Of a stretch of DNA of 64,000 bases, positions 52,040-54,116 are shown in pieces. Both the position numbers and the translations under genes were made by a program. Position 1 is the stretch's first letter; the number at the start of each line of letters is the position of its first letter. The notes beneath the pieces were generated by a model. It searched no databases. It was not told where the DNA came from and was given only the letters and a program-made list of their open reading frames with translations. The stretch is from Acorus gramineus (lineage: Eukaryota > Streptophyta > Magnoliopsida > Acorales > Acoraceae), in contig CM060847.1 in NCBI GenBank assembly GCA_030737835.1, positions 13,775,101 through 13,839,100 of the forward strand, given 5' to 3'.

Positions 52040-52171
52040 TTGAAGGAGGTGCATCTTACACCGGATTTGATGTGGTTGTCACAGATCGATCGGGTGTGGT
52101 TAGCGTGTTCTTCTCTCTATCAACAATGCTATCCCCGGAAAACAAGCGGTTCGATGTCGGTGATTTGATGC
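52040..52171 (-). pseudogene. Chimeric exon: CRK juxtamembrane fused to C-terminal tail remnant
   Basis: 52135-52171 matches exon 4 of the other copies (VHQITDI, then LVF), and about 52040-52134 matches exon 8 (GDSIVD, then TTPDRS, against [18 protein letters not shown] in copy A). The join lies at CCCCGGAAAAC. About 1.5 kb present in copies A and B, including kinase exons 5-7, is missing. Confidence 0.8.
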
Positions 52172-54116
52172 ACTGTCACACACAAATTTTATGAGCAAAA
52201 TATATGCAAATGAACATATCAACTACTACATGAGAATGATTGAATTCAAACAGGTGAAGGTGCCTGATGTCACTCCTTACTTTGTACATTCTTCATCATA
52301 ATCATCTTTTTTCGCAGGCATTTGAAAGCTACGGAGACGATTACTAGGAAAAGGATCACAGGGATGGTGATCAGGGGAGCTATTTTTAGCTTGTTGTTCT
52401 TTCTCCTCTCTGAAACACATGAAATATGTTCATCAATACCTTTTGATAATCTATCAACCTATGCATCCATTCTATCATGTACCCACTTAAAGATTTAATC
52501 TTTCATTGTGTACTATTAACTGCTCTTTCTTAAAATTAGAGAAAACCAAAATGAAGCAGAGAGTGCAATCAGGCTTAACCATTCTTAAAATAAAAGAGAG
52601 TAAAGATTAATTCTAACACAAATTAATTTAAGGCATATTTGTTATTTATGGTATATTTGTTTGAATCTACACATGCCACTAAATTATGTCAACCAAGCAA
52701 AAAAGTTAAATTACATTACTGGTTCATTCTGAACACACCAAACCAGAGCCAAAACTTACAGTCAGACAATAACAAGGATTACAAAGGGGACTACAGGTCT
52801 AGCTAGATTCAATTTGAAATCTATTTTCAAGAACAACTTATGCTTTAAATTGATTAAAATACCCAATTTTATAAAAGCTACCATACATAAGAGTAAAAAA
52901 CTATATTTGAAAAACACATGTTTGGAAAACAGAATCTATTTAACAATTGGTTTCAACCAGGCACCAAGTTCTTGCATACTTTGAGTGATCATGGTGGTTG
53001 TTGGCGGAGGAGGTAGAGGTGGAGGAGAACCACCAAAAGCCGTCCATATCGATGAATTCCTGTAAAACCGATAGACCTCGTACCGTATATTACAACTCGC
53101 CCCGACCACCCTCCCGCCGATCTTCCCGGCGCAACACGTCGGGATCTCCCCGATGGCATACCGCAAGCAGTCGGCGCACATGTCCCTGGACAGGTCCCTG
53201 GTGCATTGCACCAGGCCGTACAACCTCTGGGCGCCATTGACCTCCACGTCTCCGGTGGCAAACATCTCCGCCGACGTGTCGTTGACCGCCCGATTGACGA
53301 GGGAGCCCATCAGCCCTTTCAGCGTCTTGAAGAACGGCGTCGGATTGGACACATTTTTCACGTTCCACATGTAGAAGGCGTGGGACCCGTCGGAGGAGTT
53401 GAAGAACCTTAGGTTCGAGTAGCGGAGGAGGCAGTCGTCGTACCTGTTAATACAGGGATGCCTGTAGGATTAGATCTCAACAAATACAAAACGATTCAGA
53501 GAATAAAATAACACACAAAATAGATTTACATGTATGGTTTGACAAAATATACCTATATCCACAAGGGAGAGGAATTTACTGTGTTAAGTAATAGAGTATA
53601 AAACTTTCAATCCCTCTCTCACATAAAATAAAATAAAAATAAAACCCTACTGCCTCTTTAAAAAATTAAGTCTTTCAACTAACCTAATAAATAAGGTTCA
53701 ATGAATCAAAACACAAAAAATTTTAAAATATCTATTTATGCCACAATAAAAATACAAGATATTTCACAACAACACCATATGATGGCGCTCTTCTGGTAGG
53801 GACACAGTTGGGCGATGTCAGGGACGGCGTTGTCGAGGCAGCTCGCGCACGCGGTGACGTCGGTGTCGCCGCGGCAGAGGACGAGGCCGTTGATTTGGTC
53901 GGGGGCATTGCCTTGGGTGGCAGTGAAGAAGCCGGTGGTGGGACCGTTGGAGGAGAGGGAGCTGAGGAGGGTGTTGAGGTTGGTCTGGTAGGTGCCGTTG
54001 GTGGTGTATTTGCCGTACTTTTGACAGATTTGATAGAGAGGGTCGGATCTTGTGGTGGTGGTGATGAGAGAGAGAGAGATGATGAGAAGCAGAGGAACTT
54101 GAAAGATGAAGTCCAT
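52129..54116 (-). CDS. Kinase-less CRK (DUF26-DUF26-TM), copy C
   Basis: Exons are 53776-54116, 52980-53443, 52281-52409 and 52129-52172. The first three match the lengths of copy B and are open. Both C-x8-C-x2-C motifs are present (CRGDTDVTACASC; CTRDLSRDMCADC) and exon 3 encodes a helix ([22 protein letters not shown]). In the fourth exon only HQITDIEPLVF of the juxtamembrane survives, fused to a piece of the last exon out of frame, so translation would end after FRG: 325 aa without any kinase. The deletion removed everything between juxtamembrane and C-tail. The acceptor is retained (GTGTGACAG) despite a small deletion next to it. The architecture resembles plasmodesmata-located DUF26 proteins, but function is untested; it may equally be a pseudogene. 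Confidence 0.65.

Follow-up and report, generated by a model that had tools for sequence, protein, structure and literature searches.

Copy C, one of three CRK-type genes on the minus strand of the window, is, judged by sequence comparison, a chimera of two tandem CRK types with an A/B-type front and a D/E-type tail. We give even chances to the reading that it is a kinase-less chimeric CRK which, if transcribed, yields a non-signalling membrane receptor with two DUF26 domains. The window is the whole 64,000-nt stretch that was analysed (C1:13775101-13839100), and positions are counted from its first base. The genome searched was the 398.6-Mb assembly of 137 contigs.

Copies A and B, the two full CRKs that an earlier note had placed next to copy C, were confirmed as such, both being free of internal stops (Table 1). 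The cluster continues outside the window with two further minus-strand CRKs, copy D (8 exons, 678 codons including the stop) and copy E (7 exons, 665 codons including the stop), and with two plus-strand CRK-like genes. Between 41874 and 68220, tblastn with CRKs A, B, D, and E (E up to 1e-3) gave no match besides the pieces of copy C itself. Elsewhere in the window, the start of a DUF26 gene stands orphaned on the plus strand at 30651-30821. It matches residues 8-60 of copy E (44%, E = 4.3e-4), no other CRK match follows up to 37908, and it looks like a truncated plus-strand CRK. Two near-identical stretches in direct orientation, recognized by eye at ~30850-32890 and 33480-35590 and ~2.6 kb apart, are a recent local duplication. 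Also by eye, ~58000-59500 is rich in short G+C-rich repeats flanked by direct repeats (~57150-57330 and ~59690-59870), and ~57150-59870 may be an LTR-type element that encloses a tandem array.

Table 1. Coordinates of the CRK-type genes of the window and of the parts of copy C.
Feature	Position	Strand	Description
Copy A	22314..26045	-	intact 8-exon CRK, 663 aa, all introns GT/AG, internal stops absent
Copy B	37905..41874	-	intact 8-exon CRK, 666 aa, all introns GT/AG, internal stops absent
Copy C	52129..54116	-	four exons, three introns
Copy C, exon 1	53776..54116	-	signal peptide and most of DUF26-A; 341 nt, open, donor ATATG/GTGTTG
Copy C, exon 2	52980..53443	-	end of DUF26-A, DUF26-B, linker; 464 nt, open
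Copy C, exon 3	52281..52409	-	membrane helix and start of cytosolic tail; 129 nt
Copy C, exon 4	52129..52172	-	44 nt
Copy C, exon 4 remnant	52138..52172	-	35 nt, A/B type (0.91/0.89); acceptor lost 12 nt
Copy C, join and frame end	52129..52137	-	CGG GGA TAG; base 52137 unassigned to either parent
Copy C, last-CRK-exon remnant	52062..52136	-	D/E type (E 87%, D 75%, A/B 59-60%); non-natural frame
Copy C, 3'UTR	51913..52061	-	D/E homologous (89%/86%); A/B 46-48%
Intron 1, copy A	25279-25704	-	putative solo-LTR-type repeat
Intron 1, copy B	41191-41533	-	putative solo-LTR-type repeat
Intron 1, copy C	53444..53775	-	TGTTG...TAACA between GGTGT and GGTAC

The two parental types are apparent from the identities of the parts of copy C. 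Exon 2 has an identity of 0.90 to A/B versus 0.69 to D/E, intron 2 of 0.85-0.86 versus 0.55-0.60, and intron 3 of 0.94 versus 0.61-0.62, and A-like sequence is also found in ~110 bp upstream of the start codon. The last exon shows an identity of 0.87 to E and 0.75 to D versus 0.59-0.60 to A/B, and the 3'UTR one of 0.86-0.89 to D/E versus 0.46-0.48 to A/B. BLAST inside the cluster gave the same assignment, with 52136-51913 matching D/E and not A/B (3'UTR versus D, E = 8.9e-46), and the genome searches also returned D/E for the tail among the best 40 of 113 and the best 40 of 686 candidates. By NG86, the exon-2 dS of copy C to D/E is 0.90-1.06, and the dS between A/B and D/E is 0.86-1.15 in exon 2 and 0.65-0.78 in the kinase. 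Because A/B and D/E are distant in both exon 2 and the kinase, a front of the C type would not be expected together with a tail close to D/E by descent. The earlier note had attributed the loss of the kinase to an internal deletion. That account has to be revised, as the join spans two CRK types; an internal deletion in a single gene was not favoured as the only event because the tail matches D/E.

Trees of the front and the tail (200 bootstraps; the tail tree used only columns with a base in copy C) agree in topology. Both separate D+E from A, B, and C (bootstrap 100 for the front and 88 for the tail), and the tail tree also separates A+B from C, D, and E at 100. Copy C lies at the A/B end of the front tree, 0.35 from the D/E node, and in the tail tree its distance is 0.04 to the D/E node and 0.62 to the A/B node. 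It is this position along the tree, together with the identities, on which the case for a chimera rests.

Exon 1, which lies at 41534-41874 in copy B and at 53776-54116 in copy C, stands apart, being far more similar across the A/B and D/E types than exon 2 in all copies. The nearest copy to C in this exon is A; B lies closer to D/E than to A, and D/E are closer to B than to A. From this similarity, an exchange of exon 1 between the two types seems to have taken place.

At the join, the front ends ...CTTGTTTTC and the tail starts GGGGATAGC, with one base between them that is assigned to neither parent. D and E have a T run near the join point, and the letters common to both sides amount to a short T run plus a C. 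A crossover at matched positions was rejected, since exon 4 and the last exon are non-homologous parts that share nothing more than these letters. A join without extended homology would have linked the front of an A/B-type CRK to the last-exon end and 3'UTR that belonged to a D/E-type CRK in this tandem array. The DUF26 domains, the membrane helix, and 35 nt from the start of exon 4 would have come from the front partner, with loss of the intervening kinase regions. The two origins can be read from the letters themselves; the number and order of the fusion steps we infer. A single join with little or no homology and a two-step course, in which a hybrid CRK arose and then lost its kinase, would both fit. 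Beyond the join, ~59 nt including the last exon's natural end and stop are missing directly before the 3'UTR, and below 51913 the D/E homology stops and a dispersed repeat starts.

Copy C nevertheless has an open frame throughout, read from four exons (Table 1) separated by three GT..AG introns and translating to 325 aa plus a stop. Splice sites, translation, and Pfam bear out the coordinates and residue count that the earlier note had given for a DUF26-DUF26-membrane frame without a kinase. The predicted order is a signal peptide, two DUF26 domains, a membrane helix, and a 29-residue tail, the signal peptide and helix being called by hydropathy only. Pfam finds PF01657 in two stretches of copy C, in exon 1 (4.1e-19, C1:13828866-13829126) and exon 2 (1.2e-11, C1:13828174-13828455), and no kinase family, in agreement with the reported removal of all kinase motifs; copy A has PF01657 in two stretches plus PF07714/PF00069. 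The front keeps a cysteine at 13/13 columns that are invariant for cysteine in A, B, D, and E, and the 19-residue helix window has a mean hydropathy of 2.76, against 3.14 in A and 3.32 in B. Thus, of the features of a CRK, copy C has two DUF26 domains, a helix, and CRK descent, and its intracellular kinase domain is missing.

The first three exons had been described as identical in length among A, B, and C, which holds for exon 1 (341/341/341) and exon 3 (129/129/129); exon 2 differs (455/464/464), copy A being 9 nt shorter than B and C through an in-frame deletion. The exon-4 acceptor, said to be intact, keeps its AG and has lost 12 nt relative to A and B. The stop indeed falls 14 codons after the acceptor, where 35 nt of exon 4 are fused to last-exon sequence. 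Over the join the frame reads ...QMHQITDIEPLVFRG-stop; because the last exon is read in a shifted frame, translation ends two codons past the join. The stop would sit in what is now the final exon. An mRNA with its stop in the final exon is not expected to be a target of junction-dependent nonsense decay, so that decay of this kind is not expected for copy C. If transcribed, the gene would give a 325-aa membrane-anchored DUF26-DUF26 protein, which may bind the ligands of A/B or pair with A/B, yet could not signal. Such a protein could act as a non-signalling receptor, a decoy, or a dampener of its neighbours; that a role of this kind is its selected function has a chance of about one in three.

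Copies A-D carry an extra intron within DUF26-A that copy E is without, and in A-D the frames are open on both sides of it. The DUF26 domains of CRKs are described as usually lying in one exon (PMC6368629). This intron 1 matches at least 37 dispersed places at 66-75% among the best 40 of 78 candidates scored; the match list has 42 rows, made up of copies B, C, and A of the cluster, 2 second pieces, and the 37 dispersed places, with copy D unlisted. Copy B has the repeat as TGTTG...CAACA with GGTAC on either side, and copy D has it as TGTTG...TAACA, again with GGTAC on both flanks. The 5-bp target duplication is therefore 5/5 in B and D (GGTAC) and 3/5 in C, copy A not being aligned to the repeat end. 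Copy E and L016, a CRK-like locus on C11, have the empty site ATATGGTACGACGACTGCC. Together, the marks of an LTR-derived intron, namely TG...CA ends, a 5-bp target duplication, and an empty site in a relative, are all present. Across 11 dispersed copies, the 5-bp flanks match at a mean of 3.0/5 versus 1.7 when shuffled (0/2000 shuffles as high), with 4 or 5 matching bases in 6/11 and 1 to 3 in 5/11. This comparison covers the loci in which both ends were reached, leaving out 6/17 dispersed loci and copy A, and counts the near-identical L034 and L035 as two. No paired direct copies, as in a two-LTR element, were present in the 17 loci with ~1.5 kb flanks. In copies A-D, intron 1 resembles an insertion of solo-LTR type in the DUF26-A exon; because a complete two-LTR element was not seen in the examined flanks, solo-LTR type is the best label, short of proof.

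The intron-1 donor reads GTGTTG in C, GTATTG in A, and GTACTG in B, and intron 1 of copy B consists of GTAC, the repeat, and a G. In copy B the first target copy appears to provide the donor GT, and the repeat's last A together with the first G of the second copy to form the acceptor AG. Splicing would thus bring back the earlier frame, the target duplication providing the donor and one of the two acceptor bases. As in introners and LTR intronization, a repeat with a target-site duplication draws its splice sites partly from the target (PMC9860276). Unlike introners, intron 1 is one solo-LTR-type copy in one gene cluster, with no intron burst, and is a predicted intron. A survey of introners reports none in land plants (PMC9860276). 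An exonic insertion of the ONSEN LTR retrotransposon is reported to be spliced out as an intron in Arabidopsis (PMC12112155), and small LTR elements of grasses and other plants are reported in introns and exons (PMC3281118, PMC4717578).

The earlier note had compared copy C with plasmodesmata-located proteins (PDLPs). The comparison stands for the layout, copy C having a signal peptide, two DUF26 domains, one helix, a short cytosolic tail, and no kinase, and its best solved relatives are 6gre (4.1e-22) and 6grf (8.3e-19), the PDLP5 and PDLP8 ectodomains (PMC6368629). It does not extend to membership, which we rejected. A protein tree built from 14 DUF26 pairs of this genome unites four PDLP-like genes in a clade (100/98) that excludes copy C; the latter falls in A+B+C (82/90), nested in A-E plus a C11 CRK (99/99). 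Two of the four, L022 and L018, were compared with PDLP structures, and L019 and L023 were named by tree position. An Ax3G motif in the helix is reported for virtually all predicted PDLPs and as required for PDLP5 function (PMC7275062). Copies A-E, C included, all lack this motif at the N-terminal side of the helix. In all four PDLP-like loci scanned, the strand of the gene carries a single hydrophobic A...G stretch (gene model unspliced). PDLP targeting signals are reported to share no sequence, so that targeting is unreadable from sequence (PMC11289629).

Set beside the known DUF26 families, copy C resembles full CRKs in its signal peptide, two DUF26 domains, and helix, in having A/B as its closest kin, and in lying in a tandem array that exchanges between copies; it differs from them in having no kinase, the 3' end of another CRK type, and a stop two codons past the join. 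It shares its domain layout with PDLPs, which are likewise held to derive from CRKs via kinase loss (PMC6368629), yet it arose separately inside a CRK cluster. Like the ddCRRSPs (secreted double-DUF26 proteins) it has two DUF26 domains without a kinase, and unlike them it keeps a membrane helix (the 19-residue window above).

Selection on copy C was assessed with a maximum-likelihood codon branch model written for this analysis (five partitions, p values uncorrected), NG86 serving for pairwise dS. In the DUF26 domains, the omega of the C branch, which takes in time before the fusion, was 0.46 versus 0.29 for the rest (p = 0.28). With free tips, the values were 0.46 for A, 0.49 for B, and 0.44 for C. 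The earlier note had named a dN/dS well below 1 as support for function of copy C; its DUF26 value is like those of A and B, but it is not significantly below 1 (p = 0.083). Over the whole front, omega was 0.71 in C versus 0.35 in the rest (p = 0.071; versus 1, p = 0.41), and the kinase omega of A, B, D, and E was 0.27. Exons 3-4 gave a C omega far above the rest (p = 0.035, uncorrected), in a short piece where B and E are also extreme. Private codon changes of C (replacement/silent) number 5/2 in exon 1, 8/4 in exon 2, and 7/0 in exons 3-4, the last including an L>P change in the helix; in exons 3-4, B has 4/0 and A 5/4. Compared with exons 1-2, exons 3-4 of C show an excess of replacements with p = 0.063, and private changes at columns that do not vary among the remaining four copies number 5/22 in C, 5/22 in A, and 3/20 in B. 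A faster drift of exons 3-4 in C than in A is thus not firm.

Copy C has 0 private indels in 960 aligned exon sites and 20 in 929 intron sites, 15 of which are not multiples of 3; the 12-nt acceptor loss is counted with intron 3. At the intron rates of C, 975 nt should have gathered 18 frame-breaking events along its whole private branch, or 15.5 with intron 1 alone and 9 with the rate halved for the shared A/B stem; 0 were seen. With 9-18 frame breaks expected and none found, at most ~16-33% of the C branch was free of constraint (95% bound). By this count, copy C was constrained over most of its private history, which includes time before the fusion. We dropped the comparison in which the exons of C appeared more constrained than those of A/B relative to introns: in introns 2-3 the distance between A and B is smaller than that of either to C, so the private count of C there includes the shared stem of A and B. 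The ratios of a kept over a neutral front, 33-99, take the prior for the fusion date to be flat and leave aside that the gene was chosen for its open frame; they are not used as probabilities. Since the open frame is the reason the gene was noticed, it is a weak argument for function. The pattern of indels and omega fits an ectodomain that is kept while the cytosolic end is freed, and it also fits a recent fusion.

How the two parts came together allows for other accounts. An internal deletion may have struck one CRK whose parent already had an A/B-type front and a D/E-type tail through recombination or gene conversion, a course we regard as unlikely. The apparent cross-type exchange in exon 1, including the closeness of D/E to B, speaks for it, as do CRK ecto- and kinase regions on record as swapped (PMC6368629); it requires two events, however, and no kinase-bearing hybrid is among the matches listed (best 40 of 113 and best 40 of 686). 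Fusion of two real genes by the assembly itself is extremely improbable. Tandem arrays misjoin easily and a single assembly was used, yet the join contains no N, the tail has a further deletion of its own, and the nearest other copies among the matches listed reach 77-83% for the front and 87-90% for the longer tail pieces, so no other assembled copy was spliced into C.

Copy C may be a young pseudogene, its receptor broken by the fusion and its frame open merely through the short time elapsed; we rate this slightly below an even chance. The uniformly replacing changes in exons 3-4, the proline in the helix, the deletion of ~59 nt with the last exon's natural end, and a whole-front omega no different from 1 all point this way, and the variable CRKs have been characterized as a tandem subfamily in which loss or fractionation of tandems is frequent (PMC6368629). 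Against it stand the absence of any frame break among the 9-18 expected, which limits the unconstrained share of the branch as given above, and a DUF26 omega that matches A and B. A working plasmodesmata-located protein is very unlikely: the layout and the solved relatives agree, and the targeting signals, reported to lie in ~30 residues outside the helix with no common sequence (PMC11289629), leave room for it, but copy C falls outside the PDLP-like clade and its helix is without the Ax3G that is present in 4/4 PDLP-like loci of the genome. Returning to the non-signalling receptor, its fullest version is that two fused tandem CRKs gave a membrane decoy of the full-length neighbours, kept by selection, which independently arrived once more at a PDLP-like layout and has been caught early, its ectodomain constrained and its helix and tail starting to drift. 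We consider this version doubtful.

Kinase loss from CRKs has already been described, PDLPs and ddCRRSPs being held to derive from them through loss of the kinase and/or the helix (PMC6368629), and copy C is a new, separate instance. The same paper describes tandem expansion of variable CRKs with gene conversion. Should the fusion prove dead, copy C would be one of the ordinary by-products of tandem arrays. If functional, copy C would be a separate, younger repeat of the CRK kinase-loss step with both parental types still in the cluster, and this cluster would make the first stages testable: the break, the fate of the ectodomain, and the effect on the neighbours.
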